Source: Marivivens aquimaris (lineage in GTDB: Bacteria; Pseudomonadota; Alphaproteobacteria; Rhodobacterales; Rhodobacteraceae). From it: DNA of 64,000 bases. Both the position numbers and the translations under genes were made by a program. Location: contig NZ_JADBGB010000002.1 in NCBI RefSeq assembly GCF_015220045.1, positions 123,339-187,338 on the forward strand. The letters are read 5' to 3'. The notes under the pieces were generated by a model. That model saw nothing but the letters and a program-made list of their open reading frames with translations. It did not search any database and was not told the DNA's origin. Shown here in pieces: positions 977 through 62,685 of the stretch (the stretch's first letter is position 1; each line of letters starts with the position of its first letter).

Positions 977-1028
977 TTGATTGCGCACCAGTGTCAACAT
1001 CATGTAACGTAGAAAGTATCTTAACCCG

Positions 1029-2131: not shown

Positions 2132-2171
2132 AAAAAATACTTTCGTTCAAACGGCTTGCCTGGTCAAGTTT

Positions 2172-2220: not shown

Positions 2221-2253
2221 GAGGTCAGAATCGCTTTGGGAGGAGCGCCCGCA

Positions 2254-3156: not shown

Positions 3157-3178
3157 ACGCCTAAGGGAGGAGACCACA

Positions 3179-4186: not shown

Positions 4187-4215
4187 TCGCCTAAATCTAT
4201 CTCTCCCATGCAAAG

Positions 4216-4242
4216 AACAGGGGCGCCCACCGCGCCCCTGTT
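4216..4242 (+). terminator. Intercistronic stem-loop after the binding-protein gene
   Basis: AACAGGGGCG and CGCCCCTGTT form a perfect 10-bp stem with a 7-nt loop. C and A residues follow, not a T run. Between dctP- and dctQ-type genes such hairpins usually stabilise the binding-protein mRNA or lower downstream expression rather than end transcription. That role is inferred from position. Confidence 0.6.
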
Positions 4243-4270
4243 CCCCCAAAGCCCGAAAAGAGCTGCTTTC

Positions 4271-4798
4271 ATGGACACAATTAACCGCATCGTCAGACGT
4301 ATCTTTGCCTTCGGAGCGGGAACGTCGATGGCCCTCGTGTTTCTCATCATCTTCGTGAACTCGGTCCGTCGCTACACCATCGGCAAGTCGCTGCCGTGGG
4401 GCGAGGAGCTTCCGATTTACCTGACGATCTATGGCGTCATGTTCGGTCTGGCCTATGCCTATATGACCGACCGCCACATCCGTTTCACCGTGCTGACGGA
4501 CATGCTGAGCGCCAAGACCCGCCAGCTTCTGTTCCTCATCACGGACGTCATCACTCTGATCTGCGGCCTTGCGCTGATCCAGTCGGGCTACCAGTTCATG
4601 ATGCGCCGCGGTGATCGCGACAGCTCTGGCCTGAAGAAAACCGCCGACTGGATCGCCGACAGCACCGGCATCGTCCAGCTCGAATGGATCGGCAAAGTCG
4701 GCCCGTGGCAGTTCGCCATTGCCCTTGGCGGCGCGATGCTTGCCGTTGCGGCCTTGCTGCGCCTGATCGAGCGCGCCGCTGAACTGAAGGAGGCCTGA
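4271..4798 (+). CDS. TRAP transporter small permease (DctQ type)
   Basis: The 175-aa membrane protein has four predicted helices, at roughly residues 15-35, 48-68, 88-108 and 140-162. PWGEELPIYLTIYG is the typical DctQ signature between helices 1 and 2. It would form the membrane complex with the DctM protein encoded 4 bp downstream. I started at the ATG at 4271, because the longer frame would run through the intercistronic hairpin. Confidence 0.9.
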   Translation: MDTINRIVRRIFAFGAGTSMALVFLIIFVNSVRRYTIGKSLPWGEELPIYLTIYGVMFGLAYAYMTDRHIRFTVLTDMLSAKTRQLLFLITDVITLICGLALIQSGYQFMMRRGDRDSSGLKKTADWIADSTGIVQLEWIGKVGPWQFAIALGGAMLAVAALLRLIERAAELKEA

Positions 4799-4802
4799 GA
4801 AC

Positions 4803-6077: not shown

Positions 6078-6089
6078 GGAGTTATTCCG

Positions 6090-7976
6090 ATGAAAACCTC
6101 GATTGCCACCGTCTCCATCTCCGGCACGCTTACCGAAAAGCTCGCAGCGATTTCGGCGGCGGGGTACGATGGCATCGAGATTTTCGAGCAGGATTTCATC
6201 GCGCATGACGGCTCCCCCGCCGAGGTGGGCCGCATGGTGCGCGATCACGGGCTGGAGATCACAATGCTCCAGCCGTTCCGCGATTTCGAATGCCTGCCCG
6301 AGCCGCTGCGCTACAAGGCGTTCGACCGTGCGGAGCGGAAATTCGACCTCATGCAGGAACTGGGCACCGACCTCATCCTGATCTGCTCGTCATGCCATCC
6401 CGCCTCGCTCGGCGGGATCGACCGTGCTGCCAATGACCTCAATGAGCTGGGCGAGCGCGCCAAGGCGCGAGGTCTGCGGGTCGGTTACGAGGCGCTTGCG
6501 TGGGGCCGCCATGTCAACGACCACCGCGACGCGTGGGAAATCGTGCGCCGCGCCGATCATGACAACATCGGTCTGATCCTCGACAGCTTCCACACGCTGG
6601 GTCGCGGACTGTCGCCCGAAAGCATCCGCTCGATCCCCGGTGACAAGATTTTCTTTGTCCAGCTGGCCGATGCGCCCGCGATCCCGATGGATCTGCTCTA
6701 CTGGTCCCGCCATTTCCGCAACATGCCGGGCGAAGGCGATCTGGACGTGCGCGGCTTTATGCAGGCGGTCATGGCGGCGGGCTACACCGGCCCGCTCAGC
6801 CTCGAGATTTTCAACGACCAGTTCCGCGGCGGCAATGCTCGCACCGTGGCCAAGGATGGCTACCGCTCGCTCATCACCCTGATGGACGACGTGCGCAAAG
6901 CCGAACCGGAGGTCAAAGTCGACCTGCCCGCGATCCCTTCTCGCATCGGCGTTCACGGTGTCGAGTTCATCGAATTCACCGCGCGCGGCGATGACGCGGG
7001 CAAGCTGGCTGGCCTTCTCGGTTCGCTCGGCTTCGTCCGCACCGCCCGCCACCGCAACAAAGACATCGACCTGTGGCAGCAGGGCGAGATCCGCATCGTC
7101 GTCAATTCCGACCCCGAGGGCCACGCCGCTCACGTCTGGAATGCGCGCGGGCTGAGCGTTTGTGACATCGGGCTGCGGGTCTCCTCCGCGCAGGACACCG
7201 TGGAGCGCGCACGCGCTCTGGGGATGTCACCCTTTGACCAACCGCTCGGCCCGGGAGAGCTGGACATCCCCGCCATTCGCGGTCTCGAAGGCTCGATCCT
7301 GCATTTCATCGACGAAGACAGCGGCCTGTCCCGCGTGTGGGACGTCGAATTCGTGCCGACCGGCGACAAGGCCAAGGGCGCGGGCCTCAAGCGGATCGAC
7401 CACCTCGCCCAGACCATGAGCTACGACGATATGCTCAGCTGGACGCTGTTCTATTCGTCGCTGTTCGACATGCAGAAATCGCCCATGGTCGACGTGATCG
7501 ACCCCGACGGCCTCGTCCGTAGCCAGATTGTGGAATCAAAGGGCGGCGAAATGCGCGTCACGCTCAACGGCGCCGAAACGCACCGCACGCTGGCGGGTAA
7601 CTTCCTTGCGTCGAATTTCGGTGCGTCGGTCCAGCACATCGCACTGGATACAGACGATATTTTCGCGACGGCGAAAGCTCTGGCCGACTGCAAGTTCGAG
7701 GTTCTGCCGATCCCCGCGAACTACTACGCCGACCTCGCCAGCCGTTTCGACATCTCGCCCGATCTGCTGGCCCGGCTGAAGGCCGCGAATGTCCTCTACG
7801 ACGAAGAAAACGGTCGCAGCTTCTTCCAGCTTTACTCTCGCAGTTTCGCGGGCGGCATGTTCTTCGAAATCGTCCAGCGCGGCGACGGATACACCGGCTT
7901 TGGCGGCCCGAACGCGCCGTTCCGGATCGCTGCCCAAAAGCGGCTCGGACGGGTCAAGGGCGTGCCTGCGGCCTAA
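6090..7976 (+). CDS. quiC: 3-dehydroshikimate dehydratase, two-domain (QuiC1 type)
   Basis: The 628-aa fusion has an N-terminal xylose-isomerase-like TIM barrel (residues 1-270) and a C-terminal 4-hydroxyphenylpyruvate-dioxygenase-like VOC region (about 295-620). It would convert 3-dehydroshikimate to protocatechuate. The four metal ligands expected for this family are visible at E134 (GYEALAWG), D165 (LILDSFH), Q191 (FVQLADAP) and E239 (LSLEIFND). The VOC part keeps His-containing segments (RIDHLAQT, VQHIALD) and a late Glu (FFEIVQRG); in studied homologues it modulates activity. A clear AAGGAG precedes the start. Together with the dehydrogenase it makes a short route from shikimate or quinate to protocatechuate. 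Confidence 0.92.
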   Translation: MKTSIATVSISGTLTEKLAAISAAGYDGIEIFEQDFIAHDGSPAEVGRMVRDHGLEITMLQPFRDFECLPEPLRYKAFDRAERKFDLMQELGTDLILICSSCHPASLGGIDRAANDLNELGERAKARGLRVGYEALAWGRHVNDHRDAWEIVRRADHDNIGLILDSFHTLGRGLSPESIRSIPGDKIFFVQLADAPAIPMDLLYWSRHFRNMPGEGDLDVRGFMQAVMAAGYTGPLSLEIFNDQFRGGNARTVAKDGYRSLITLMDDVRKAEPEVKVDLPAIPSRIGVHGVEFIEFTARGDDAGKLAGLLGSLGFVRTARHRNKDIDLWQQGEIRIVVNSDPEGHAAHVWNARGLSVCDIGLRVSSAQDTVERARALGMSPFDQPLGPGELDIPAIRGLEGSILHFIDEDSGLSRVWDVEFVPTGDKAKGAGLKRIDHLAQTMSYDDMLSWTLFYSSLFDMQKSPMVDVIDPDGLVRSQIVESKGGEMRVTLNGAETHRTLAGNFLASNFGASVQHIALDTDDIFATAKALADCKFEVLPIPANYYADLASRFDISPDLLARLKAANVLYDEENGRSFFQLYSRSFAGGMFFEIVQRGDGYTGFGGPNAPFRIAAQKRLGRVKGVPAA

Positions 7977-46407: not shown

Positions 46408-46470
46408 GGTGCGCTCATAGCGAATGTGATCTGCCTTGCGAAGCAGAACCGCGTTTGCTAGCTGAAACAC

Positions 46471-46592
<122 letters not shown>

Positions 46593-46624
46593 GGACAGGA
46601 CGGAGGAGACTCCGGCCCCTGTTC
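46593..46624 (+). terminator. Hairpin after the FMN aptamer (expression platform)
   Basis: GGACAGG pairs with CCTGTTC, and inside it CGGAG with CTCCG. No T run follows, so control may act on translation or through an alternative fold rather than by intrinsic termination. Confidence 0.5.
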
Positions 46625-48221: not shown

Positions 48222-48968
48222 ATGTCCGAAACCCGCGAAACCGCCGTCCTCTACCGTATGGTCATGCCTGAACATGTCTGCCCCTACGGTCTGAAATCCA
48301 AGGCTCTCCTGGAAATGAAGGGTTTTGACGTCGAGGATCACTGGCTGGAAACGCGCGAGGAAACGGATGCTTTCCTTGAGGAGCACAACGTCAAAACCTC
48401 GCCACAGACGTGGATCAACGGGGAGCGTGTCGGGGGATACGACGACCTGCGCGATTACTTCGACATTCCGCTCGATGATCCGGACGAGACGTCCTACCAG
48501 CCTGTCATCGCCATTTTCTCGGTCGCGTTCCTGATGTCGCTGGCGGTGACGCTGATTGCCAACGGGACGGTGCTGACGCTGGATATTTTCACGCGGTTTA
48601 TCGCGATTTCGATGGTTCTGCTGGGTATCCAAAAATTGCAGGATGTGGAGCAGTTCAGCACGATGTTCCTCGGCTACGATCTGCTTGCTCGCAAGTGGGT
48701 GCCCTACGCCTACATCTACCCGTTTGCCGAAACGCTCGCGGGTCTGCTCATGCTCGCGGCGATCCTGCCGTGGCTGTCGGGTCCGATTGCGCTGTTCGTC
48801 GGCGGGGTAGGGGCCGCGTCGGTGTTCAAGGCGGTCTACATCGACAAGCGCGAACTGAAATGCGCTTGCGTGGGCGGCGGGAGCAACGTGCCGCTCGGCT
48901 TTGTGTCGCTGACGGAAAACGTGATGATGCTGTTGATGGGCATCATCACCATTGCCAGCCTGTTCTAA
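48222..48968 (+). CDS. Glutaredoxin domain fused to a MauE/DoxX-like membrane domain
   Basis: The 248-aa protein begins with a glutaredoxin-like domain (residues 5-80). Its active site reads HVCPYGLKSK, with one Cys and a Gly at the second Cys position. The cis-Pro region is KTSPQTWINGERVGGYDDL. Four helices follow (about 95-245), with CACVGGGS before the last, as in MauE-type quinone or thiol redox proteins. It probably passes electrons between a cytoplasmic thiol and the membrane. GGAGAA precedes the chosen start. Its 3' end overlaps the large-protein operon by four bases. Confidence 0.82.
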   Translation: MSETRETAVLYRMVMPEHVCPYGLKSKALLEMKGFDVEDHWLETREETDAFLEEHNVKTSPQTWINGERVGGYDDLRDYFDIPLDDPDETSYQPVIAIFSVAFLMSLAVTLIANGTVLTLDIFTRFIAISMVLLGIQKLQDVEQFSTMFLGYDLLARKWVPYAYIYPFAETLAGLLMLAAILPWLSGPIALFVGGVGAASVFKAVYIDKRELKCACVGGGSNVPLGFVSLTENVMMLLMGIITIASLF

Positions 48969-50461
48969 TTCGCCTCCTCGGGTTTGAGCAGAACGTCATG
49001 CGCAAGGCCGGAACTGCCTGACAGTTTCACCTGCGCATCGGTATTCACCCGCCAGACATGACGTGAGCCGTCCGGCGCGCGCCCCAGCACCCAGCGCTGT
49101 TGCAGGCCCCAGCCATCGCGGCTGATCTGCATGGGCTGGAGGTCGAGCCGCGTCGGCACGATCGACAGCACGGGTTGCGGCAGGTCATCGTCGAACGTCC
49201 GCCGCTCCATCTGTTCGTCCATCTGAATATATGGGTGCCAGTTGTCGGGGGGCGGGATGCGCACGGCGTATTCGGGCTGCGTGACGGTGCGGTCCTTACG
49301 GACGGCTTGCACGAGATGCCCGCGCCCGTTGTCGTCTTTCTCCGTGCGCACCTCGGCCCAGAGGAGGTTGTCCATCTCGTCAGTCCCGAACGCCACGACA
49401 TCCGTCGGATCACCGAGCAGCAGCGGCGCGCTTGCCAGCACGGGCATGGCGCGGTTTTCGGTGCCGTCGGTCCACGCGCGGGCGACGCTGCTTTTGGCCT
49501 CTTGCACCTCGATTGTGTTGCCGAAGCCGTCGGTCACGGTAATTTTCTGAGGGTAGAGGACGCTGTTCGAAGGCACGTCGAACGGCGCGATCCACGCCAC
49601 GCGGTGCGCTTTGGTAAAGGCCGAGGCGATGACGAGTTGGCCAAGGTCGCTCGGTCCCGCAGGCGCAGCACTCCAGTCGCGGCCCGCGTCCTCGAGCCCC
49701 CACCACCTGTTCGGCGCGTCTCCCGCATAGACCAGCCGCGTGGGCACGGCATGGGCGGTGAAATCGGCCATTTCCTCGGGTGTTTCTGACGGCTGGATGT
49801 CGTCCCAATGCAGCGCAGGGCCGCTGGCACCCTTCACCCGTACAATGTCGATCCCGCCGTCGATCTCGGCAGACGTAGACCCTGTTTCGGCATGAAACGT
49901 CGATGCGGCCCTCACGTCGGGGAGTGCGGCGAACCACTCAAAAACCTCGGGCATGACGATGCCTTCGAAGCGGCCATCGTTCGCCCTGATCGACGCGGCG
50001 ATGGCGTATCCGTCGATAAGTTTCTTCTCATCCACGCGGCGCAGCGAGGGGGGCATGACCGCTGGTGTCAGCGCGAAATTCTCGTGCAGTTTGCGCTGCA
50101 TCGCCTCCAAGGCTTCGACCACATTGCCGTTCGCGCCACTGGCCTTGTAGCGGCCGATGAGGGCGGTCATTCGGTTATAGAGCTTGATCCCCAAAGCCAG
50201 CGACCCGCGCCAGTCATCGGACGTCGTGGCCAAAACGGAGGAGGGGATGAACGCGTCCATCCCGCTGGTCCCGCCGGTGAGGCTATCGCGGCGGGCTTGG
50301 AGTTGCACCGAAACAGGCGCGCCACCGTTGAAGCCTTTGAACTCGCCCACCCACCATTGCCGCGACAGCATCCACGCGGGATCGGCAAGGCGGACGAGAG
50401 CGCCGTCGGGAATGGCGCGGGCGTTGCGGGTATCGGGTTCGATCCGGTTACGGCTTGACAT
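48965..50461 (-). CDS. Large-protein operon, protein 5 (498 aa), function unknown
   Basis: No enzyme motif is recognisable. The N-terminal region has DPAWMLSRQWWVGEFKGFNG (residues about 27-46), and the middle has APNRWWGLEDAGRDW followed by DLGQLVIASAFTKAHRVAWI and a TDGFGNTIEV strand. I recall the same RQWxxGEF and RWWxFED patterns in uncharacterised proteins of actinobacteria and cyanobacteria that co-occur with relatives of the other cluster proteins. There is no signal peptide or membrane helix. The start overlaps the preceding gene by 14 bases, and it is the last gene of the operon. Confidence 0.75.
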   Translation of the reverse strand: MSSRNRIEPDTRNARAIPDGALVRLADPAWMLSRQWWVGEFKGFNGGAPVSVQLQARRDSLTGGTSGMDAFIPSSVLATTSDDWRGSLALGIKLYNRMTALIGRYKASGANGNVVEALEAMQRKLHENFALTPAVMPPSLRRVDEKKLIDGYAIAASIRANDGRFEGIVMPEVFEWFAALPDVRAASTFHAETGSTSAEIDGGIDIVRVKGASGPALHWDDIQPSETPEEMADFTAHAVPTRLVYAGDAPNRWWGLEDAGRDWSAAPAGPSDLGQLVIASAFTKAHRVAWIAPFDVPSNSVLYPQKITVTDGFGNTIEVQEAKSSVARAWTDGTENRAMPVLASAPLLLGDPTDVVAFGTDEMDNLLWAEVRTEKDDNGRGHLVQAVRKDRTVTQPEYAVRIPPPDNWHPYIQMDEQMERRTFDDDLPQPVLSIVPTRLDLQPMQISRDGWGLQQRWVLGRAPDGSRHVWRVNTDAQVKLSGSSGLAHDVLLKPEEAN

Positions 50462-53400
50462 GGCGAGGCTCCGGTCCGGGATTGCAGTGGGTGCGGTGAA
50501 TGCCTGTGTCGGCAGCGCGAAGGCTCAGGAACGGCAGCAGATTGCCGAGGTTGTTGTAGCTCTGCGCTCCGTCCGACGGCAGATCGGTGAGGGTCAGCGA
50601 CCGCAGCTTGGCGAGGTTCACGGCGGTGCTAACCACCTCGAACACGGTGTCCAGCGTCCATTCGGCATCAGGATCAGGCGGCGCGAGCAATGCGACCTGC
50701 GGCGCGCGGGCCGTAGGGGTGGGGGTGTCGATCACCGCGCCGATGGTGGCAGTGTCGTCGGGGACGACCTCTTGCCACTGGTCGATCATCAGACCGCAGA
50801 TCAGGCTGTTTGCGGGCCGTGGGCCGTTGAAAACAATGCCGTTTGTCGCGTGATACACGCCGTCGTTCACCCGCTTGCCGCCGATCCAGTCGTTCTGGCC
50901 GTCAACGATCCCGCCAGGCCATTGGACGGCCCAACTGTCATCGCTCCCGCCCAGCACGAGGTCGGAGAGCGGGGCGAGGCGACTGCGGACAACTTGCGAT
51001 TCCTCCAGCCATTCTTCCAGCGCGTCGTGGTCCTCGAATAGCCGCGCCCACGCATCGTTGCCGGGGGGCAGGGTGAAGGCGCGGACGACGGGCATGTCGG
51101 GGTCGAGCGCTTTGGCAGCGGCCTCTCCTGTCAGGCTGCGGGCGTCCTGAATGCGGGCTTCGATCTTGCGCAAGGCGCGTTCGGCCAGCACCTCGCGGGG
51201 GATGCCTCTGGTAGTTTTAATGATGCCGAGGCAAATCAGTTCGACGGCCAGCGCCTGCCAGTCGGTGTCTGATGGGGGCTCGGGCGTCGGAAACGGCCTC
51301 GGTCCGGGCTGAGGCCGTGGGTCGAGGTCGACGTCGGGCAGTGTCAGCTGGTGAGTGAACGGCTTGAGGCGGTCCATCAGGTTTTCCAGCGCCGCGATCC
51401 GTGCGTCGATGTGTTTGGTCAGGTAGGAGGGCGATTCAACGACCGACAGCGTGGTGTTCTGCGGGTCGGCGAAGTCATCCGGCTTGAAGGGCCGCGCTTC
51501 GGACAGCAGGCGGTTCACGCGGGCGGCGGCCCAGATTGTTAGTTGCGCTTTGTCGTCGAGCGTCCCGATGTAATTCGCCGGATCGCGGCCCGTTGACAGG
51601 CAGGCCAGTTCCGCCAGCGCGGCGGCGGTATCGCGGTCGGGAGCGGAGAGGCGGACGAGCGCCAGAACGCTGGGTATATTGGCGATGTCGTAGCTGCGTA
51701 GCGGGGTGAGCGGCTCTTTTTCGGTGAGCCTGATCTCGCCGCCCAAGTCGCCGATCAGACGCTTTGCAATGTCATTCAACGGGTCGTCTTCGCGCCCCGT
51801 CACGCCCACGCCGAACGCGATGGCAGCGCCGGAGACGCGGGGCTCCAGCACTTCGGGATCGGCGGGTGGAACCGCCCCTGCGCCCCGCGCGGCGAGAATG
51901 CCCGATGCGCGGTCGGGGCGGCCCTCGGTCAGCGCCAGCCCGCCTTCGGCCAGCATCACGGCGCCGAGAATATCGATCCCGTCGCGGACCTCTGCCAGCA
52001 CGGCGTCCAGCTTGTCGCGGTGATCGCCCACGGTGCGCAGATCGGCGGGCAGGTCGTTGTCGATCAGCGCGAGCGCGTCGAACCGCAGGGGCGACTGGCC
52101 CTCTTCTTCGATGTCGGGGAAGGTCGCGGCGAGCGTTTCGATCACTCCGCCCGCGCCGCGCGATTGCAGCTCTTCGCAGATCACGCGGGTAAGGCCAGCG
52201 TCATAGCGGCCGGCACGGGTGAGTTCGGTCATCAGGCGGCGAGCCATTTTCACGCGGGGCGCGGTGAGCGCGGCGTCGAAAATGCCGTCCATCCCTTCGA
52301 GCACGAAGCCTTCCTCGGCCCGCGCCAGAAACCCTGCCAGCCGCGCGAGGCGTTGGGACGGCGCGATCAGATAGGTCGCATCGGGGTCGGGGTGCGTGGT
52401 GAGCGGGACGTCCTCGACATAGCCCCACGCGCCGACGGAGGTGCTTTCCGCGTCCTGTTCGAGGCGGATGCGCGCCTCGCCCTCGATCCAGATATCGGGG
52501 CGGAGAGAGAACCAGTCGATAATATTGGCAACGGTATGATGCAGCAGATCCTGCGGCTGTTTGAGCAGGTATTCGAGATGTTTGATGAGGCGTTTCAGAT
52601 CGTCGGAGCGGGTCGTTTGCGGGGCATTATCCCGCACGCCGATTGCGTTGCCGCCCGCGTTTTGCAGGAGCGTCTCCATCAGGCGGTGGGCCGTGGTCTC
52701 TCCGATCCGGCGGGGATTGTGGAGGATTTGGGCGCGATTGTTGGCGGCACTGATCGCGTTGGGCTCGTCGATGATCGCCTGCATATCGGCGAGGATATTG
52801 CGCATCGCGTCTTCGCACAGAATGCGGAACAGCGGCTCGGGACCTTCGTCGTCACGGCGTGCGGCTTGGTTATCGAGCAGGTCATCGACGTACCGTCCGT
52901 GCAGCATCTCGTCGATCACGGGATCGGCCCAAGTGTCGGCGCTGGTCTCGCCGCCCTCTGAAATCAGCGGGCCGCAGTTGCGGGTGGGGAAGGGGCTGCC
53001 AGTGAGCTTGCTGAAGGGGAGTTCGCGGTTGCCGCGAAAGCCTATGTCGGTCAGCAATTTATCTGCTGATTTTGCATTAGAGGCCATTTGACTGACCATT
53101 TGGCGCTGTGCGTTGCTGTAGGTGTTCGATCCTGCTGCGATCAGCTTGGCGACCGTCAGCACTTCCCACCGCGCGCGGTCGCGCCAGAGCTGGCCGAAGG
53201 GCATACGGGCCAGCGTTTGGGCAAGGTCGTCTGCGGGAGCGGCGGGAGAACGCAAAGTCTCGGCAAGGCGGGCGAGTGGGACGGCCTCGCGGATACCGTT
53301 GGTGATTTTGCCGAGCCACGGGTGATCGCGGCTTGGCTTGGTCGAGACGCCCATGATGCCGACGGGGGTGCGCCCGACGGCGAGGACGGGGATATCCGCG

Positions 53401-54641
53401 AAATCGGGCAGGGCGCGGGACAACTGGCGACGCAACTGGTCGAGCAGAGCGGCATCCGAACCCAACCCGCCTTCCTGCCCGAAGATCTTGTCGAACACGA
53501 AGGTCGGGCGGATCGCGGCCTCCCACAGAACGCAGAGCACCGCATTGGTCAGCGCTTTGCTATCCTTCGTCGTGAGCGTATCGGGGATGTCTTTGATGCG
53601 GAGCAGTTCGTGCAGCGCCTCTTGCTTGCCATCAGGGAGGGACGCCAGCGGCCCGCCGGTGCCCGCGTCCTCGCCCTTGGTCGTCTGGCCCGAAAACAGC
53701 GATGTCAGGCCCGGCCCTTTGGCGAGGATGTCGAGCGTGCGTTCAACAGGCATATCGCCCGCGCCAATCACCGCGACCTTGGCAGTTTTGGCATCTGGCG
53801 GCACGCTGAAGCTGTGAGCCATGCCCACCTCGACCGCCGTGTCGAAATCGGCAATCCAGTAGAGCGGATCGCCCTTAAGGCTGAGGAGCGCGGTATCGCC
53901 GTCCCCCGGACCGGTGGGGAGGTCTTTGGGGATGTCTTTGCCTTCCTGCTCGAACCGCTCGCCGGGGTGGGTGTCGAAGGACACGCAATAGATCAGGCGC
54001 GGGGGCAGGGAGCGGGCGAGGGGCCGGTCGCCGCTTTCGCCCGCTACAAGGCGGCCCTTTTTCACGGCCTGACGGATGGCGTAGCTGCGGGCGGTGCCAG
54101 CGGCGGCGTCGAGGTCGGCGGTCGTCATCTCTCCGCGTTCCCAACGGTTACCGTCCGCGACTTCGTTATCTGAAAACCCTGCGGTCGCATCGGCGTGCAT
54201 CGCGTCGGGGAAGGCGCGGATTTTGAGGGTGGTGCCGTCGCAGAACGTCTCGATCCTGAGCGGCAGCAGCATCAGAGCGGATTTGAGCGGCACTTTGAAT
54301 TTGTAATCGCCGCTCACCTGCGGCTGGTCGGACAGGTTCCAACCTTGCTGGGGGGCGGGATCTTCGCGGTCCTGAAAGTCGGCACCACGGATATGGCCCG
54401 AGGGGTCGATTTTTTCGCGCAGGTTCCGAAACAGTAGCGCTGCCTTGTCCTGCGGCCCGATGACCGAAACCTGACGGCGGCCAATCATCAGACCCTCGAC
54501 CACGATCAGTGCACGGGTGCCGTCTGTGAGCGGGACGCTGACCTTGTCACCCTTGTTGATCCTGCCGCGCACCAGAGCGCCAGTAACGGCGGTCCCGCGG
54601 CCTGTGATTGAGAAAATGTCTTCGATTTTGAATAGGATCAT
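50448..54641 (-). CDS. Large-protein operon, protein 4 (1397 aa), with EF-Tu domain-2-like N-terminus
   Basis: Residues 1-92 resemble the second beta-barrel domain of EF-Tu/SelB-type GTPases (FKIEDIFSITGRGTAVTGAL, GRINKGDKVSVP) but without any GTPase domain. A long helical middle of about 1000 residues is not recognised. The C-terminal 170 residues include CGLMIDQWQEVVPDDTATIG and a LAKLRSLTLTDLP segment; I recall the pattern LVVDEWVEVxP in uncharacterised large proteins elsewhere. A Pro-rich linker (DPRPQPGPRPFPTPEPP) lies near residue 1100. No signal peptide or membrane segment is seen. It starts 27 bp after the upstream gene. Confidence 0.75.
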   Translation of the reverse strand: MILFKIEDIFSITGRGTAVTGALVRGRINKGDKVSVPLTDGTRALIVVEGLMIGRRQVSVIGPQDKAALLFRNLREKIDPSGHIRGADFQDREDPAPQQGWNLSDQPQVSGDYKFKVPLKSALMLLPLRIETFCDGTTLKIRAFPDAMHADATAGFSDNEVADGNRWERGEMTTADLDAAAGTARSYAIRQAVKKGRLVAGESGDRPLARSLPPRLIYCVSFDTHPGERFEQEGKDIPKDLPTGPGDGDTALLSLKGDPLYWIADFDTAVEVGMAHSFSVPPDAKTAKVAVIGAGDMPVERTLDILAKGPGLTSLFSGQTTKGEDAGTGGPLASLPDGKQEALHELLRIKDIPDTLTTKDSKALTNAVLCVLWEAAIRPTFVFDKIFGQEGGLGSDAALLDQLRRQLSRALPDFADIPVLAVGRTPVGIMGVSTKPSRDHPWLGKITNGIREAVPLARLAETLRSPAAPADDLAQTLARMPFGQLWRDRARWEVLTVAKLIAAGSNTYSNAQRQMVSQMASNAKSADKLLTDIGFRGNRELPFSKLTGSPFPTRNCGPLISEGGETSADTWADPVIDEMLHGRYVDDLLDNQAARRDDEGPEPLFRILCEDAMRNILADMQAIIDEPNAISAANNRAQILHNPRRIGETTAHRLMETLLQNAGGNAIGVRDNAPQTTRSDDLKRLIKHLEYLLKQPQDLLHHTVANIIDWFSLRPDIWIEGEARIRLEQDAESTSVGAWGYVEDVPLTTHPDPDATYLIAPSQRLARLAGFLARAEEGFVLEGMDGIFDAALTAPRVKMARRLMTELTRAGRYDAGLTRVICEELQSRGAGGVIETLAATFPDIEEEGQSPLRFDALALIDNDLPADLRTVGDHRDKLDAVLAEVRDGIDILGAVMLAEGGLALTEGRPDRASGILAARGAGAVPPADPEVLEPRVSGAAIAFGVGVTGREDDPLNDIAKRLIGDLGGEIRLTEKEPLTPLRSYDIANIPSVLALVRLSAPDRDTAAALAELACLSTGRDPANYIGTLDDKAQLTIWAAARVNRLLSEARPFKPDDFADPQNTTLSVVESPSYLTKHIDARIAALENLMDRLKPFTHQLTLPDVDLDPRPQPGPRPFPTPEPPSDTDWQALAVELICLGIIKTTRGIPREVLAERALRKIEARIQDARSLTGEAAAKALDPDMPVVRAFTLPPGNDAWARLFEDHDALEEWLEESQVVRSRLAPLSDLVLGGSDDSWAVQWPGGIVDGQNDWIGGKRVNDGVYHATNGIVFNGPRPANSLICGLMIDQWQEVVPDDTATIGAVIDTPTPTARAPQVALLAPPDPDAEWTLDTVFEVVSTAVNLAKLRSLTLTDLPSDGAQSYNNLGNLLPFLSLRAADTGIHRTHCNPGPEPRHVKP

Positions 54642-54668
54642 GGTGCGAAAGTCGCTTGGAAAAACAGG

Positions 54669-57290
54669 TTACAAAATATCGCTGAGGTGGATCGCCACGA
54701 CGACGGGCCGCTCGAGCAGGATGCCCGCCATCCGCGCGCCGTCCTTGCCCCACGCGAGGCCCGCCGGCCCTTGGCTGCGGTCAAACGCGTTCGGCGCGAT
54801 GTCGTCGCCGCTGAGGTCCGACCATGAAAGTGCGTTCCAGCTGGAAAGGTCCGCAGGCGTTTGCGGGGCGTCTCCGGTGGGGGCATTGAGCCCGAAGGTC
54901 AGGCCCTTTTTCGGCTGCACGAAGGTGAGGAAATAGCCCGGATTGCCGTCCAACGAGACGCCGCCCAGATCGGGGAAGCCGACGTAGGACAGACCGCGCG
55001 AGAGCTTGCCGTACATGATCGGCAGGACCGGAGCGCTGTTTTGCAGGTCGATGGTGCGCTGGCCGTTTTCCATGACCGCCTTGCAGAGCATCACCTGAAT
55101 ATCGGGAAACTTCTCCAGCAGCGGGGTGCGGAGGATGGTGACAAAGCCCACTTGCGGCGCTTCGCCATGCTCGCCCAGATCGGTGTCGCCCCAATCGCCG
55201 ATGGGCTCGATATCGGGGTTCAGGGGGCTGCCGTCCGTCGGCGCGGGAAAAGCGCGGCGGATGGGGGAGGCGTTGTTCGGCACGGGCATCCCGCGCCAGC
55301 GCAGCTCGCGCAGCAGCTCGTGGTTCGCGCCGACCATCACGGCCTCCATCGCGCGGGGATCGTAGAACACGCCGGTGAGCGAGTCCTCGGGCATGTCGCG
55401 CAGGTTGGGGGCGACCAGTTCGGGCGAGTCCTCGAGCAGCATCTCGAACAGTGGATGGGGCCAGACCGGATCGTGGATCAGGCGGACGGGCAGGCTGTCA
55501 CCGTCCAGTTCATCCGCGCCGCCGATCCGCTGCGCGATACGGGGCGGAACGCTATGGGCAGGGTCGAGCGCGCGTTTGATGCCATCCGGAATGCGGCCCA
55601 CGCGGTCGTCGATGTCTTTAAGCTTGGGGGCGTCTTTGGGCAGGAAGGAACGGTCGTAGGTGTCCTGCGCCCACGCCTTCATTTCCTCGTCGGCGGGATT
55701 GATCTTGGGCCGGTCATTCGGATTGCGGTCGAGGAGCTGACCGAGCAATGCGGCGACTGTTTGCTCCACGTCGATCGAAGAAGAGCCGACATTTGTCTGG
55801 TTGATCAGCGTGTCGACGAGATCGTCAGGCATCGCGGCCCCCGCGACGCGGTCGGCATCGGCAAAGGCATCGGCAACGTTCTGCGCGCCGGTCTGCATAT
55901 CCTCAGGCGTCAGGCCGCGCTTGCCCGCCTGCCGCGCCACGGCGGAGGACAGCGCCACGTCCAGAACGGTGCCTTCGACCCGCTTTTTCAGCGAGGTCTT
56001 TCTGCCGTCGTGGTCCAAGATACGGGTCCGAGCGGCGGCGGGACCGGCAAAGCCGACGAGGGAGGCGGTCGACGCACTGCCAAGCGTGCGGGTCGTCTTC
56101 GCGTTAAGCTGGCGCGCCGCGTGGGCGCGGGAAATGATGGCGTTCGCGTCTTTGATGGCGCCTGCGTCCTCACCGATAAAGGCGACCAATTCTTCCTGTC
56201 GTTTGCGCACGATATTGGTGCCCGCCCCTGCGAGCCTGCGCAGACCGAAATCGCGATTGACGCTCTGGAACCACTCTGCCGAAGCCGACGAATGTGCGTC
56301 CTCTTCGTCCGCGTAGGCACGGCCATAGGATGGGATCGGCATCTCTGATGAAAAGAGCGGCGAGAGGGCGCCTTCAAGCGCTTCGTTAAAGATGTCCACG
56401 GGCATTTCGTCGGCGTTACGCTGTGCGAACGGATCGTGGGTGGGGATGAACAGCGTGCGGTCGACGACCATCTGCTGGTCGAGTTCTTCGATCGGTGACA
56501 GGAACTTGGCGGACATCGGGAACTCTGCCGGATCGTCATTCAGATCGAACGCGGTCAGATCGCGCAGCATGTCCTCCGCGCCGCGGCCCGCGCCAGTGGT
56601 GAAGGTCCAATGATGATAGACGGGCATGGTGAGCGCATCATCGCCGCGCTGCCATGCGTAAAGCGTCTGGCCCGTCGGTTCCTGCCCCAGTCCGGCAAGG
56701 CGCCCGTCTTCGAACAGTGGCACGACGCAGGCGGTGTATTTGGTGCGCGGTTTCAGTTGTTGCAGACTGACGAGGCGGGCGATGGCGCGCGGACCCGGTT
56801 CGGTGTCGAGCGACTTGCCGTCGGGATCGTGGATGTGCGCGCCCATCTGAACGTGGTTGGGTTCGGGCAGCAGCGGACCGCCGGACACAGAAGCCGTCGC
56901 CAGCCCTGCCGCGCTGACGGTCACGCGGGTGTCACCGATACTGACGCTGCACAGATCGGACGGAAAACACAGCAGCGCCATCCACGGGTCGATGCCCATA
57001 TCGTTGTTCCAGCCGTGCGGGGTCAGCACCCATGGCAGCATCGGATCGCTAAATTCAACGTACGGCAGGGCGCCCGCGCGCATATCGACGCTGCCCGCGA
57101 CGGGGTAGACCTTGCCAATCGCAGTGGGTTGGAGGGCAGAGACGTTGCCCGGACCGGCCAGCGACAGGTCGATGTCCACTGTTTCGGTGGAGCCGCCCTT
57201 TTTCACATCGAGCTTAAAGGACACCGCATCGCGGTCGCCGCCGAGAGTGCGAATGCCGCGGCGGGCGTAGGCGTAGAAACGGCCGCTCAT
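54669..57290 (-). CDS. Large-protein operon, protein 3 (873 aa), function unknown
   Basis: The N-terminal 270 residues look beta-rich and contain ALPYVEFSDPMLPWVLTP. The middle (about 300-560) is helical and charged. The last 300 residues carry GANHELLRELRWRGMPVPNN, an RTPLLEKFPDIQVMLCKAV strand and WNALSWSDL. The patterns ELSxPxLPWxxTP, NHExxRELxWR and WNxLSW are ones I remember from large uncharacterised bacterial proteins. No signal peptide, membrane helix or catalytic signature is seen. It overlaps the upstream gene by four bases. Confidence 0.75.
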   Translation of the reverse strand: MSGRFYAYARRGIRTLGGDRDAVSFKLDVKKGGSTETVDIDLSLAGPGNVSALQPTAIGKVYPVAGSVDMRAGALPYVEFSDPMLPWVLTPHGWNNDMGIDPWMALLCFPSDLCSVSIGDTRVTVSAAGLATASVSGGPLLPEPNHVQMGAHIHDPDGKSLDTEPGPRAIARLVSLQQLKPRTKYTACVVPLFEDGRLAGLGQEPTGQTLYAWQRGDDALTMPVYHHWTFTTGAGRGAEDMLRDLTAFDLNDDPAEFPMSAKFLSPIEELDQQMVVDRTLFIPTHDPFAQRNADEMPVDIFNEALEGALSPLFSSEMPIPSYGRAYADEEDAHSSASAEWFQSVNRDFGLRRLAGAGTNIVRKRQEELVAFIGEDAGAIKDANAIISRAHAARQLNAKTTRTLGSASTASLVGFAGPAAARTRILDHDGRKTSLKKRVEGTVLDVALSSAVARQAGKRGLTPEDMQTGAQNVADAFADADRVAGAAMPDDLVDTLINQTNVGSSSIDVEQTVAALLGQLLDRNPNDRPKINPADEEMKAWAQDTYDRSFLPKDAPKLKDIDDRVGRIPDGIKRALDPAHSVPPRIAQRIGGADELDGDSLPVRLIHDPVWPHPLFEMLLEDSPELVAPNLRDMPEDSLTGVFYDPRAMEAVMVGANHELLRELRWRGMPVPNNASPIRRAFPAPTDGSPLNPDIEPIGDWGDTDLGEHGEAPQVGFVTILRTPLLEKFPDIQVMLCKAVMENGQRTIDLQNSAPVLPIMYGKLSRGLSYVGFPDLGGVSLDGNPGYFLTFVQPKKGLTFGLNAPTGDAPQTPADLSSWNALSWSDLSGDDIAPNAFDRSQGPAGLAWGKDGARMAGILLERPVVVAIHLSDIL

Positions 57291-60200
57291 GCGCTGACCT
57301 CCGTCGTGCGGACCGCACCTTTGCCGAGGACGGCTCGCGGCGCGGGCTGGGTTGTCGAAATCGTTAGCGTGCTGTCGGTCATCACGTAGGCTTCGTCGCT
57401 GATGGTGATCTTGCGCTTTGGTTTGACCTTGGGCGCGGGGCCGATGTTGCCTGCCAGCTTCGAGGTGCCGACGGGGCGGATGCGGCGGGCGGGGGCGAAG
57501 GCGTCGTCGGACGCCTCGGGCGCGTCGATGATGATGAGGTCTTCGCTGTCATCGACAACCACCGAGTCCGCCATCGGGAAATCGACGGTGGTGGTAAATA
57601 CCGCGCCGGACTCCATTTCCTCGAACGATGGAGAGGACAGTTTTTCGTTGTCCGTCAATGTCTTGAAGTTTCCAGGCGCAAAGCGGGCGATATTCTTTGT
57701 CGCTGTATTATGGACAGCGTTGTCCTCGTCCTTGATCCGCAGCACCTCGAATTTATCGTCGCCCGTGACTGCGGCGCCGCCGTAGTGGTCGAGCTTCAGA
57801 CCGAACGGCACGCAGTCCTGCGACAGCGACACGGGCGCGTCGGGCATCACGCGGTCGGTGCAGTTCCTGAGCACAAGGTGGGTCGTCTCGGTTTTGCCCG
57901 CGCCCCACGATTGCGGCATCCGTAACCGTTCGAGCAGATGGTCCGCCCAGACGTTTTCGGGCGGCAGGGTGCTTTTCTGGGCATCGCCGAAGGACTTGTC
58001 GAAATGCACCTCGACATCCCAGAACAGCACCTTGATCCCCGCATTGCCCTTGGCCCGCCACGGTCCAGGACCACTCAGTTGGCCGTTGAGCCAGACCGAG
58101 CAGAGCGTATCGCGGCCCCGCTTGATCGTGGCGCTCGCGTGGACATCGGCCTGAAGGTAGAGCGGGCTGAAGATGATCAGCACGTCGAAGCCGAGGTCCG
58201 CCAGAACGGTGAAGCCCTTGAGTTTCGCGTTCAGATCCAGCCCCGCGCCGAACTGGAGGCTGTTGCTGGTCAGCGCGAAATAGCCCGTCGCGATCAGTTT
58301 GAAATTGCTGGAGTTGGCGACGACGAGCGTCAGGCGGTCGACGCTCGGGAAACCTTCGGGCGGTTCGAAATCGGGGTGGAACCCGCCGATGGAGGCCGCG
58401 AACTCCGCCTTGGCCCCCCAGCACGACCGGATCGCGAAACCGCCCGAGAGGGACATGCCCGCGATGACGGAGTCGTGGATAGAGCCCTCCATATCGAACC
58501 GCTGCGCGGTCAGGTCGAGCACGCCCGCCACGTCGATATTGATGCTGGCGATCGGCTCTTCGGGCTTGGGCAGGTTCATCCCGATGCTGCCGATGAGGAT
58601 GATCCGCAGCGGCTCTGGCAGGGTGACGGCCAGCGCGATATCGGCGGTGATAATGGTCGGCGCGCCCCAGCTGAGCTTGACCGTCGGGCCAAGCACATAC
58701 TGGTCGCGGGTGACGGGGAAGATCGCGGAGGCGTCTTGGAGCAGTTGCGGCCCGTCTTCGGCGGGGTGTTCGGGCGACAGCAGATCACCCGCACGCCCCG
58801 CTCGGACCACGTCGAACAGCGCGTCGGTGTCCACATCGCGGTTGATGCCCACGAGGCCGCCGACGCCGAGCAGATTGAACCCGAAGCCGAGCGGAATGGG
58901 CGGGAATTGCCCCGACATGAACAGGATCAGCGACCAGCCGTCCTCGCCATCCGGCATTTGCGTGTCGAGGATGCCGAACGCGGTGATGCCGATCGCTTCG
59001 ACCTGCAAACTAAGAACACCCTGATAGCGGCCGATGTCGGGCAGGCATTCGATGAAACCGCCCCCCGATACGGGGCCCGCATCGACCGAAACGCCCATGC
59101 CTGTGGGCGGTACGAATGTCACGCCGGCAAAACTGGGGCCCTCGGACATCACGAGGTCGAAACCGGTTTCAACCCCGATCCCCGTGATCGCGCCGGAAAC
59201 AGGGCCGATGCTCATGGAGGCGTCGAGCGTGGCGCGGATACGCAAGCCAAAGCCGCCATCGGGCGCGGGGTCGGCGGGGAGGACCGAGATCGTGATCACC
59301 TCGAACCGCAGCGCGTCCCCGAAGCCGAGGTCCGTGGGGTAGCGCGCGGTAAAGCCCGTCGCGCCCATCGACAGATAGAACCCGTCCTTCGTCGACCAGC
59401 CGGCCATCGGTTTGAAGCCGGTCGTAATGCCTTCGGGCGGCAGAAGGCTGGCAATGAACCCGTCCACGTCACCCGCCGAGAGGGTGAAATCGAGCGTGTC
59501 CAGCTTCGCCTCGGTCCGCAGGTCGAAATTACCCGGATCGAGTTTGAGCTTCACCCCCGTGCGGTAATTCGCGGCGTGCATCGATAGAGGCCCGAACTGG
59601 TAGGTCTCGTCAAAGCCGTCGCCTTGCAGCTCTACCCCGAGATCGACGGGCGGAGCCGCCGCGCCGGTGGTGACGCCGTTCGGAGTGATCGTCATCTGCA
59701 TCATCTCGACGGCATCGGTCGCGGCCGAGAATACAAGGTCGGTGTTGTTGCCCAGATCGACCGAGGTCTGCCCCTCGCCGTTGATGCTCAGCAGCGCCTT
59801 GAGCGATGGTGTTTGGAGGTCGCCCTGAAGCGTCAGCTTGGCCGCCGCAGCGGGATCGACAGACTGGAAAATCGTCCAGATGAGCAGCAGGTCTTCGGGG
59901 TTCGCCTCGACATTGGCCGGCAGATTGGCGTTCGCCGCCTCCATAATCTGCGCCCGCAGCCCCATCGCGCCGAGCAGGAAGGCAACGGCAGCAACCAGCT
60001 GGGCGGCGTCGAAGTCGGGTTCGCCGAAGCCGAAGGTCTCCTGCACCGCCTCCAGCGGATCACCGATCACATCTGCAATCCGCGCAAAATCGAACTGGCC
60101 AGCGGTTCCGGCATTCAGCGCCGCGTCGTTCCCGACACCAATGAAGCACAGCACCTGCCAGACGGCGGGATAGTAGCGCGACAGATAAACCGCGATGAGG

Positions 60201-60640
60201 TGCTCGGTCACCAGCTTCGCGACTTTTTCTGGAGAGGGGAGGGAGCCGATTGCGTGCGGCAGTTCGCCCCGCAGATCTTGGACAGCGGCGACGAACCTTC
60301 TCACCGCTTCGATGGCGTCAATCAACTGCTCCACATCTGCCATGTCGAAGTTCGGATCGTCGAACTGGCTCTTGGCTGTCGCAATCGTCGTGCGCAGACC
60401 TGCCACGGCGGTTGCGAAGGTTTCTGCAACGGCTTCGGTCGGAAGCTCGGGCAGTTCGATGCCGCAATCAGTGACGAATTTGCGAAGCTCTTCGGCGCGT
60501 TCGTTCAGGGAAACGGTCGTCGTGCTGTCGATGGTGAAGTCATAGACGATGCGATTCTGCGACGGCAGCGACAAGAACGAAAGCGGCTCCAGCAGGCGCT
60601 CGATTTCACGGATGAGAATGGCGGGTACAGCTTGGGTCAT
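57287..60640 (-). CDS. Large-protein operon, protein 2 (1117 aa), beta-rich, DUF6603-like
   Basis: The first 300 residues are helical. Residues about 300-900 are Gly-rich alternating beta strands without a signal peptide. The segment GFGFNLLGVGGLVGINRDVD (near 587), then DASAIFPVTRDQYVLGPTVK and KLSWGAPTIITADIAL, recalls a family I know as DUF6603; this is from memory. The last 150 residues are low-complexity and Pro/Lys-rich and may be a linker or docking tail. Length and repetitiveness suggest a structural role, not an enzyme. It overlaps both neighbours by four bases. Confidence 0.75.
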   Translation of the reverse strand: MTQAVPAILIREIERLLEPLSFLSLPSQNRIVYDFTIDSTTTVSLNERAEELRKFVTDCGIELPELPTEAVAETFATAVAGLRTTIATAKSQFDDPNFDMADVEQLIDAIEAVRRFVAAVQDLRGELPHAIGSLPSPEKVAKLVTEHLIAVYLSRYYPAVWQVLCFIGVGNDAALNAGTAGQFDFARIADVIGDPLEAVQETFGFGEPDFDAAQLVAAVAFLLGAMGLRAQIMEAANANLPANVEANPEDLLLIWTIFQSVDPAAAAKLTLQGDLQTPSLKALLSINGEGQTSVDLGNNTDLVFSAATDAVEMMQMTITPNGVTTGAAAPPVDLGVELQGDGFDETYQFGPLSMHAANYRTGVKLKLDPGNFDLRTEAKLDTLDFTLSAGDVDGFIASLLPPEGITTGFKPMAGWSTKDGFYLSMGATGFTARYPTDLGFGDALRFEVITISVLPADPAPDGGFGLRIRATLDASMSIGPVSGAITGIGVETGFDLVMSEGPSFAGVTFVPPTGMGVSVDAGPVSGGGFIECLPDIGRYQGVLSLQVEAIGITAFGILDTQMPDGEDGWSLILFMSGQFPPIPLGFGFNLLGVGGLVGINRDVDTDALFDVVRAGRAGDLLSPEHPAEDGPQLLQDASAIFPVTRDQYVLGPTVKLSWGAPTIITADIALAVTLPEPLRIILIGSIGMNLPKPEEPIASINIDVAGVLDLTAQRFDMEGSIHDSVIAGMSLSGGFAIRSCWGAKAEFAASIGGFHPDFEPPEGFPSVDRLTLVVANSSNFKLIATGYFALTSNSLQFGAGLDLNAKLKGFTVLADLGFDVLIIFSPLYLQADVHASATIKRGRDTLCSVWLNGQLSGPGPWRAKGNAGIKVLFWDVEVHFDKSFGDAQKSTLPPENVWADHLLERLRMPQSWGAGKTETTHLVLRNCTDRVMPDAPVSLSQDCVPFGLKLDHYGGAAVTGDDKFEVLRIKDEDNAVHNTATKNIARFAPGNFKTLTDNEKLSSPSFEEMESGAVFTTTVDFPMADSVVVDDSEDLIIIDAPEASDDAFAPARRIRPVGTSKLAGNIGPAPKVKPKRKITISDEAYVMTDSTLTISTTQPAPRAVLGKGAVRTTEVSA

Positions 60641-62685
60641 CGGTAGGCCACCACTTTGCGGTTTGCGACGAGGCGGCGCCCGAGGTGGTCAGGCGGCGAT
60701 TTGAACTTGAACTCGCAGTATCGGTAGTCGTTGGGAAATCCGACATCGGAGCCCGCCTGAAGCGTCGCAAGCGATTGGCTGGGCGGGAGATATGCGTCGC
60801 CGCCAGTGGTTCTGAAATGATCGCTATTATCTGCGAAATTCGGCAACGAAGCCGTCGCGCCAGTGTCATTGATGACCGAAATCGTGATCGTCCAATTCGG
60901 ATAGTAATCCATCGCGGGTTTGCCGTTGGTCCCGCCACCATGCGCTCGGTCAGGCATCGTGTGTTGGATCATGACGGAAACTTGGTTCGTCGTCAGATTG
61001 AACGCGATTGGCGAAATCGAGGTTTTGAGCGCGACCATCTGATTGCCGAGATCGCTGTTGGAATATTCAGCTGCGCTCGTCGAGGGGCCGAACTGATAGT
61101 GCGCGTCGGTCACCGTGGCGGAGGTCGACGGTTGTTTGCCGAAGAAACTGATGTTCACAAGGCCAGCAAACGGGTGATTGGCGGTGAAGCCGACCAGATA
61201 GGCGCCAACCAGTCCAATCGCGATCAACGCGATGGCGATCAGACCGATCGGGCCGGCTGCTGTGCCGATGCCGAGCGCAGGCCCCATCAATTGAAGCAGC
61301 GGCAAAACCGCGAGGCCGGCGGCGCTCGCTCCCGACAGAAGGTGCCCCATAGCGACCGAGGTGTCGTTCATCATATCGGCTTGGGCGTAGCCTGTAGCCG
61401 CGCCGTAGATTTCAAAGATGGCGACCACCGTCCCCAGCACGAGGACGCCGGTCTTCGCGACCTTGAGCGCTGTGGCTCCGGCGAATTCTTCGATAACACC
61501 TGCCGATTTATATGCGGCTTGGGTGGTTTCGAGAGACCATGTTGCGACCTCTGCGACCTTTCCTGACAGCGAGAATAGCGACTTGAGCGTGTCCGCCTTG
61601 TTGGTCGATGTCGCCAGTGACTTGAGCTCTGCAAACAGGCCGATCACATGGGGAAGGTTGTCGAAGATATAGTTGGCATTCCGTGTCAGCGCCTTGAGTG
61701 CCTTGGTCATTGGATGGGCGTCGTCCGCCATCGTCGCATTGAACGCATTGGTCAGCGCGCGGACATCGTCGAACATCTGCACGAAGTCCGCACCTGCGTT
61801 ATAGACCTTCAGCAGTTTGTTGAGATGCTGCTCGGGGACACTCGATTTGACGATAATCATCTGACCCGCAACCTGCGTGTAGGACAGATAGACCTTCATC
61901 ACGAAGTCACCGATCTGCGCGTTGGTCGGCGGCGCGGCAGAAGCGGATACGTTGCAAAGAATGTCGGCGCGCTGGGTGCTGTCCGCTATGGCGCTGTAGG
62001 CGTTGCCGGAAATTTCGATCGGTAGATCCTCGGCAACTTTGGTCAGGCGCTCGACGGTGAACAGGCCCGTCCCGCTCGTGCTGGAGAGATCATCGAGCAA
62101 AGAGCCGGCTGAGAGGTTGCGTACGTCCTCCTTGCTATGCAGTTCCGGCGCATGGGCGCGAATGGCAGAGAGGCCCGCGAACAGTTCGGTGAGGAATAGC
62201 ATCCGCTCAACGGCAGGCGCGGCGTCAAAGACATCCAGCAGGTTGTCGGTCGACAGCAGCAACCGCTGAAACGAAACAGGTAGCCAACCACCAGCTTCCC
62301 AGACTTTGTCTTTCAGTCCGGATGTATTGCCGCGGTAGAATTCAGTAAGAGCGCCACTGAAGCAGCACATGAATTTTTCATCGAGCTCGTAATGGGTTCG
62401 AATGACCTCGAAGCTTTCGTGCAGATTGCCTTGGATTTGTGCGCCAAGTGTCTTGGAATCCTGCACCTCACTTTGTTTGAGGTGCTCCATCGTCGAATTG
62501 ATGAGGCGCCAAAGTTCGATAGCTTTCTGGGCATCGTCGGTCTTGCGCCCGACCTCTTTGAGTTTGCCTTGGAGCTTTGCGTGCCACGCAGGGTCGGCTC
62601 GCTTTTTCGCGACTGCATCGACCTCGTACATGTAGCTGCGAAGCGGCGCGAGCCAGGGCATCAATTTGCCAGCAGGGTTCACCAT
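60637..62685 (-). CDS. Large-protein operon, protein 1 (682 aa), with central hydrophobic region
   Basis: The N-terminal 390 residues are mainly helical and soluble. Residues about 405-500 contain two long hydrophobic stretches (TGVLVLGTVVAIFEIYGAAT and AAGPIGLIAIALIAIGLVGA) that could insert into a membrane or form a buried hairpin. The last 180 residues look beta-rich (QVSVMIQHTMPDRA, WTITISVINDTGA). There is no signal peptide. The layout of a soluble helical part plus a hydrophobic hairpin recalls pore-forming toxins, but no family is recognised. It is the first gene of the operon; only a weak GAG ribosome site is seen. Confidence 0.75.
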   Translation of the reverse strand: MVNPAGKLMPWLAPLRSYMYEVDAVAKKRADPAWHAKLQGKLKEVGRKTDDAQKAIELWRLINSTMEHLKQSEVQDSKTLGAQIQGNLHESFEVIRTHYELDEKFMCCFSGALTEFYRGNTSGLKDKVWEAGGWLPVSFQRLLLSTDNLLDVFDAAPAVERMLFLTELFAGLSAIRAHAPELHSKEDVRNLSAGSLLDDLSSTSGTGLFTVERLTKVAEDLPIEISGNAYSAIADSTQRADILCNVSASAAPPTNAQIGDFVMKVYLSYTQVAGQMIIVKSSVPEQHLNKLLKVYNAGADFVQMFDDVRALTNAFNATMADDAHPMTKALKALTRNANYIFDNLPHVIGLFAELKSLATSTNKADTLKSLFSLSGKVAEVATWSLETTQAAYKSAGVIEEFAGATALKVAKTGVLVLGTVVAIFEIYGAATGYAQADMMNDTSVAMGHLLSGASAAGLAVLPLLQLMGPALGIGTAAGPIGLIAIALIAIGLVGAYLVGFTANHPFAGLVNISFFGKQPSTSATVTDAHYQFGPSTSAAEYSNSDLGNQMVALKTSISPIAFNLTTNQVSVMIQHTMPDRAHGGGTNGKPAMDYYPNWTITISVINDTGATASLPNFADNSDHFRTTGGDAYLPPSQSLATLQAGSDVGFPNDYRYCEFKFKSPPDHLGRRLVANRKVVAYR

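Follow-up and report, generated by a model that had tools for sequence, protein, structure and literature searches.

The 64,000-nucleotide stretch of Marivivens aquimaris DNA studied here (contig NZ_JADBGB010000002.1, positions 123,339 to 187,338; hereafter the window) harbors an operon of five large genes, designated A to E in the order of transcription and encoding proteins of 682 (A), 1117 (B), 873 (C), 1397 (D) and 498 (E) amino acids (aa). Our survey indicates that four giant proteins without a described function, B, C, D and E, have been kept together from Alphaproteobacteria to haloarchaea while the gene at the front has been traded, and exchange of this front ('slot') gene between unrelated effector-type families is well supported by the sequence comparisons. 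Tentatively, we read the block as a mobile, modular conflict operon in which a large core would control an exchangeable effector, here a pore-former-like protein.

Distribution and co-inheritance of the core

The arrangement B-C-D-E (type I) occurs in the same order and direction at 18 loci (the window, L001, L015–L023, L060, L061, L076, G688, G913, G886 and G1199; L and G numbers are our own locus and genome codes), and the core was seen in Pseudomonadota, Actinomycetota, Gemmatimonadota and haloarchaea. C and D are split into more than one gene at L017 and L018, the matches to C are spread over two frames at L060, and E extends past the end of the stretch read at L020. C-D-E without B was found in G883, where 7 kb of upstream sequence were read, and also in G834, whose contig ends 1 kb upstream so that B may lie beyond it; G1130 is cut at a contig end. 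In a second arrangement (type II), likewise found at 18 loci, B and C lie beside a different large protein, F (about 1050–2015 aa as called), followed by a protein G at six of them (type II loci: G009, G561, G602, G372, G407, G572, G425, G586, G517, G322, L062, L063, L068–L071, G1019 and G955; B of L071 is known from a short tblastn match only). The idea of F as a diverged D, or of G as a diverged E, found no support, hhalign probabilities being below 1%.

B is a full-strength member of DUF6603 (Pfam PF20248; 388.9 bits against a curated cut-off of 27, expectation value (E-value) 4.2e-116), a family that Pfam lists as of unknown function. The type II form of B is about 3100–3350 aa long at eight loci (L030, L026, L033 and similar). 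C and then D or F adjoin B in 16 of the 17 Pseudomonadota genomes with a DUF6603 match (one being cut at a contig end), the exception being G297, which carries B alone. The distribution is patchy: DUF6603 was matched in 3 of 101 relatives, 3 of 289 genomes of the class, 9 of 299 of the phylum and 6 of 350 of the class of G517 (overlapping sets). For E, a scan of 394 genomes from the family of the host gave matches in 7, the one in G665 being partial and lacking C or D nearby. A tblastn search with B matched 15 plasmid records, of which 13 were inspected, the other two being further S. longwoodensis plasmids; with a type II query 14 records were matched, those newly inspected being from Paenibacillus, Streptomyces NBC_01276 and one of three S. 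clavuligerus records. One Natrinema megaplasmid bears two type I blocks (L021 and L076) with different slot genes. A phage origin was rejected, as tblastn with B against 50,697 phage records gave no match; IMG/VR, scanned for B with a pattern of a kind that detects close relatives only, also gave no relative.

Between any two of the four core proteins the distance matrices are correlated (r 0.86–0.95), and for each pair none of 2000 permutations gave a value as high (16 type I loci, without L076 and G1199; 18 for pairs without B, adding G834 and G883), although shared phylogeny alone can produce correlations of such size. In the tree of the concatenated core the haloarchaea stand together (support 1.0), Nocardia groups with Paraburkholderia (1.0) and Rhizobium with a plasmid of Streptomyces NBC_01724 (0.994), and these cross-phylum groupings imply transfer of the block from one phylum to another. 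Any two gene trees have 5–9 of 13 splits in common. The sequence-only reading had taken conserved co-occurrence of very large proteins as a hint of a multi-protein assembly. Tabulating the neighborhoods of homologues upheld the linkage of B-C-D-E at the 18 collinear loci, where the correlated matrices speak for it as well, but not a fixed five-gene unit, since A is exchangeable and occurs at full length in Marivivens only.

The exchangeable gene before B

The slot gene stands close to B at 10 of the 18 type I loci, either overlapping it or ending at most 12 base pairs (bp) away. Slot genes of the same type as A are found at five type I loci (the window, L001, L017, L020 and L076), and the haloarchaeal proteins among them match NF041559, the BTH_I2691/VasX family of type VI secretion system (T6SS) effectors, with E-values of 2.7e-10 (L020), 4.8e-7 (L076) and 2.5e-5 (L017), the matches covering a C-terminal region of the profile that overlaps the one touched by A. 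PhoD-like genes occupy the slot at three loci (L019, G1199 and, by similarity to L019, L022), the L022 protein also having a peptidoglycan-binding domain. Trypsin-like genes with a GDSG motif occupy it at two, L060 and, with one intervening gene, L061; the L060 call, for which Pfam gave sub-threshold matches only, rests on GDSG and on BLASTP similarity to the L061 protein (E-value 1.6e-26). A subtilase gene, matching a PADLOC subtilase model, is present at one locus (G688), and in Nocardia (L023) a subtilase directly follows E. Among type II loci, a metallo-beta-lactamase (MBL)-fold protein precedes B at three (L062, L028 and L068), matching LmuA, RTasMBL or Avs1a models with best E-values of 1.3e-8, 6.9e-20 and 1.2e-11, respectively; the THxxxDH motif is present in both proteins checked.

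A few further genes around such blocks may be recorded. G561 and G602 have related small 5′ genes, of 253 and 296 aa, and large proteins encoded after E in G883 are related to two genes before B in G297 (28% over 424 aa; L055 17218-19901 and L025 17560-19899), the G297 protein giving a weak match to a pre-toxin domain (PT-TG, E-value 0.012). On a Streptomyces plasmid (L070), the stretch about 5–10 kb upstream of the type II block (2648-7704) holds a conflict gene of the CATRA caspase/TPR kind and another gene with a CHAT domain.

Gene A of Marivivens

Full-length homologues of A are confined to Marivivens (1 of 100 family genomes, that of the host itself, plus L001, the locus of Marivivens donghaensis). 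Its GC content is 0.575 as against 0.633–0.650 for B to E, its GC content at third codon positions 0.70 as against 0.79–0.81, and its synonymous divergence (dS) between the two Marivivens species 0.18 as against 0.29–0.32; the lower GC and lower dS fit a separate history, as if A had been acquired or exchanged later. A diversifying effector had been expected, but of the five genes A shows the strongest conservation in the two-species comparison (ratio of non-synonymous to synonymous divergence, dN/dS, 0.084).

Hydropathy places hydrophobic segments at residues 406–498 of the 682, ahead of a C-terminal part. Against NF041559, A scores 14.2 bits, its best slot-mate 39.5, and the NCBIfam cut-off of 150 is not reached. 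When 5976 ORFs (open reading frames, with duplicates) were searched with a profile built from the three haloarchaeal slot-mates, A ranked next behind the members of the profile itself, and BLASTP aligns it with the L076 slot protein over 122 residues (E-value 6.9e-4). A sub-threshold Pfam match to CatAgl_D1 (E-value 0.0021) was also obtained. Like BTH_I2691/VasX proteins (Tke5, Ptx2), the A-type slot proteins have a hydrophobic region near the C-terminus of the profile. According to PMC12909789, the VasX-family protein Tke5 forms pores, and its helical region is enough for killing; A has its parts in the order given there for Tke5, a long N-terminal part being followed by a hydrophobic stretch and this by a C-terminal part. 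A differs from the family in its weak match. The family profile matches in its C-terminal region only, and a loose pattern (R-x-G-x-x-[YF]) for the N-terminal MIX domain of T6SS loading was not seen in A or its three slot-mates.

Neither VipA/TssB nor a contractile sheath gene was found in the host genome or in G003, E. coli being positive as a control for both, and A is therefore unlikely to be T6SS cargo here. Sheath genes were found in three of nine genomes tested (G688, G883 and G913) and may belong to phage tails. Since A and B overlap, there is no separate immunity gene between them.

The operon and its core proteins

As the sequence-only reading had it, the five genes are consecutive minus-strand ORFs with three overlaps and a 27-bp gap. 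All have ATG starts; A/B and B/C overlap by 4 bp and D/E by 14 bp, the gap being that between C and D (Table 1). The six motifs listed there are present as well: RQWWVGEF and RWWGLED in E, NHELLRELRW and WNALSW in C, DQWQEVVP in D and GVGGLVGINRDVD in B. The link of proteins with such motifs to Actinomycetota, drawn in that reading, holds. In Marivivens donghaensis each of the five has an open reading frame, 92.6–97.2% identical to that of the window with dN/dS of 0.08–0.13, and they are thus real genes rather than chance ORFs. Promoter and terminator scans gave signals at or below shuffled levels. No signal peptide is evident in the five proteins, judged by eye and hydropathy only, and hydropathy shows no membrane-type hydrophobic segment in C, D or E.

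The description of all five as uncharacterized has to be modified. In a Pfam scan of the five proteins, DUF6603 in B was the sole family match above threshold. D starts with a segment similar to domain 2 of EF-Tu (E-value 1.9e-7 in NCBIfam and at best 2.5e-6 in a second search), which is also found in four close homologues of D (P0001–P0004) and in none of the remaining D proteins of the ORF set that was searched; the N-terminus of D is a translation-factor domain grafted onto a giant protein. A has its weak T6SS-effector match, and for C the description stands, with no family match in Pfam, NCBIfam, PHROGs, PADLOC or a sequence search of solved structures. Such solved-structure searches with A, B, C, E and the L020 slot protein returned nothing useful, the weak matches of B being mostly designed helical proteins.

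B is predicted to consist of an N-terminal helical domain followed by a long amphipathic antiparallel beta-meander (predicted local distance difference score (pLDDT) 81.3, predicted template-modeling score (pTM) 0.54; alignment of 71 of the 75 B homologues, P0056, P0057, P0071 and P0072 being left out). Against a library of viral folds the model gave four matches at an E-value of 0.001 or lower, the best (7.5e-6) being unnamed, with TM-scores of at most 0.14 by query length; one was a putative tail fiber of phage phiPMW (E-value 2.1e-4, TM-score 0.10). We take these and the matches to PDB folds, tentatively, as indicating long beta-structure only. Amphipathic strands alone do not imply a membrane role, because soluble sheets alternate too. 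As regards B as a possible outer-membrane beta-barrel, no signal peptide is evident, and Streptomyces and haloarchaea, where relatives occur, lack an outer membrane of that kind. For E no fold is claimed, the model confidence being 67.7 with no PDB match at an E-value of 0.001, and its conserved Trp motifs fall in low-confidence regions of the model.

Just beyond the operon lies a gene for a 279-aa protein with RTX calcium-binding repeats, without an obvious counterpart in the gene map of Marivivens donghaensis, and further on an FMN (flavin mononucleotide) riboswitch precedes a 148-aa ORF, presumably a lumazine synthase gene.

Table 1. Features of the operon and its surroundings (window positions)
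Feature	Position	Strand	Basis
Gene A, occupant of the variable first slot, putative membrane-active effector, 682 aa	60637..62685	-	hydrophobic segments, weak profile match
Weak NF041559 match (C-terminal membrane region), A residues 353-497	61195..61629	-	E-value 0.011
Gene B, DUF6603 protein, 1117 aa	57287..60640	-	Pfam and structure model
DUF6603 domain of B, residues 461-997	57650..59260	-	Pfam
Gene C, core protein without database family, 873 aa	54669..57290	-	conserved adjoining B
Gene D, core protein of type I loci, 1397 aa	50448..54641	-	6 homologues
EF-Tu domain-2-like segment, D residues 3-79	54405..54635	-	profile matches (see text)
Gene E, last core protein, 498 aa	48965..50461	-	model and conserved Trp motifs
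Gene for protein with RTX repeats, 279 aa	47149..47988	-	
ORF, 148 aa	46657..47103		
FMN riboswitch	46467..46596	+	Rfam RF00050, 112 bits

Relation to known systems

Within the open subset of PubMed Central, no paper was found on the DUF6603 name or the motifs, and none by title on the operon. Extracellular contractile injection systems are multi-gene blocks without signal peptides and with variable cargo, as here. They differ in that no sheath gene was found in this genome and that none of A to E has a PHROG match, and a contractile injection apparatus, which the sequence-only reading had set against its own proposal, is not supported in this genome, where VipA was not found either; no match to such an apparatus was found. 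PHROGs and PADLOC scans of A to E gave no match at an E-value of 0.1.

As for the slot, PMC12799240 describes MBL nucleases and proteases as repeatedly acquired by unrelated defense systems, and the MBL proteins at three type II loci and trypsin-like proteins at two type I loci resemble the nuclease-protease pairs and MBL effectors that it gives for Avs1, Lamassu, DRT and Hachiman; unlike these systems, A to E are without a PADLOC match. Conflict systems with constant components and varied effectors are also the subject of PMC7159879, and the NTP-dependent ones described there share with our loci a constant part and exchanged peptidase-type effectors. They are unlike them in that no MoxR, vWA, STAND or GTPase domain was recognized in B to E, D having only its EF-Tu domain-2-like segment. 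Effector exchange is a known principle, and the core itself matches no known system in the libraries tried.

Proposed mechanism and alternatives

If the block is a conflict operon, B, C, D and E would make up a constant core, probably one large complex, that would keep the effector encoded before B inactive in the cytoplasm, and upon an attack on the cell, e.g. by a phage, the core would release or activate it. In Marivivens the effector would be A, a putative membrane-inserting relative of VasX/BTH_I2691 without a recognized T6SS loading part, which may then form pores from inside the producing cell and depolarize the cell's own membrane; hydrolase effectors elsewhere would cut DNA, protein or phosphoesters. 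A conflict operon is favored because the content of the slot overlaps known effector lists, and we give precedence to action inside the cell, since the MBL relatives look like defense effectors that act there, no secretion signal is evident and no separate gene lies between A and B. The earlier guess of a membrane-active complex gains support through A, by way of the slot-mates that match NF041559, and less so through the amphipathic beta-protein B. It is also conceivable, if somewhat doubtful, that the four giant proteins, including a lipoprotein-like amphipathic beta-scaffold, constitute a domain-crossing, non-contractile machine that carries or gates exchangeable pore-formers, proteases and nucleases with no recognized ATPase or phage-tail part.

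Several observations weigh against a conflict operon controlled in this way. Seven of the 18 type I loci have no recognized effector before B (L015, L016, L018, L021, L023, G886 and G913); five of these have a co-directional ORF of no recognized family there, some possibly spurious (a gene at L021, ORFs at L016, L023, G886 and G913), and L015 and L018 have none. The MBL slot proteins also match the ComEC/Rec2 model (2e-12 for L028, 2e-9 for L068 and 5e-14 for L062), that of L062 fitting it better than any defense model, and two of the three lie just under the Pfam cut-off for MBL. PADLOC gave no match in A to E or in the A-type and trypsin-like slot proteins submitted. A itself reaches NF041559 at an E-value of 0.011 only and the slot-mate profile at 0.0035, and because its own match is weak, its tie to the VasX/BTH_I2691 family rests on its slot-mates. 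No NTPase or known sensor was recognized in the core by library scans, the LTD, FG-GAP and peptidoglycan-binding domains of relatives suggest a location outside the cell, and a small or distant immunity gene may exist. Finally, there are local supported conflicts among the core trees, mainly around L018, around L015/L016/L022 and within the haloarchaea, of which recombination or alignment error may be the cause.

Export would be a different way of using the slot protein: B to E could be a non-contractile delivery particle or carrier taking it (here A) to other cells, much as the T6SS takes VasX-type toxins. We consider this unlikely but rank it second, because A-type proteins match a secreted T6SS effector family and relatives bear LTD, FG-GAP, decapeptide and peptidoglycan-binding domains. 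As VipA and sheath genes were not found in the genome, the slot protein would have to leave by another route; B is a large amphipathic beta-protein, and on the Paenibacillus plasmid (L069) a stretch about 8–13 kb upstream of the type II block (1-6002) holds baseplate-V-like, DUF4280, pentapeptide and GH-E nuclease genes. These neighbors are outside the block, however, no lysis or immunity gene was recognized in the operon, no signal peptide is evident, and the resemblance of the MBL proteins to intracellular defense effectors speaks for action within the cell.

That the block is a lipid-handling assembly, in which B would be a lipid-binding beta-belt or open barrel in the manner of apolipoprotein B, C, D and E would cap or tether, and the slot enzymes would modify the cargo, seems improbable: the root mean square deviations are high with TM-scores of 0.12–0.14 by query length, alternation is expected of any beta-sheet, the pTM of the B model is modest for such a claim, and an exchange of proteases and MBL proteins is ill-suited to a lipid role. 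It could also be that an ordinary, unnamed cell-surface or storage complex is encoded and that the genes before B are passengers, as the seven loci without a recognized effector would allow, and the accessory domains of C, D and E are variable as well. We give this little credence, as the slot gene overlaps B or lies within 12 bp of it at 10 of the 18 type I loci, those recognized fall into few effector-type families, and the distribution among relatives, class and phylum is patchy.

Should the block indeed be a conflict operon, it would represent an effector-control apparatus whose constant parts have no match among the immune and secretion systems of the libraries tried. It would then be a microbial weapon or means of self-defense not yet described, and the DUF6603 family would become testable at once. 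If the core is a machine that carries or gates its effectors, no weapon or immunity apparatus described so far would be like it.

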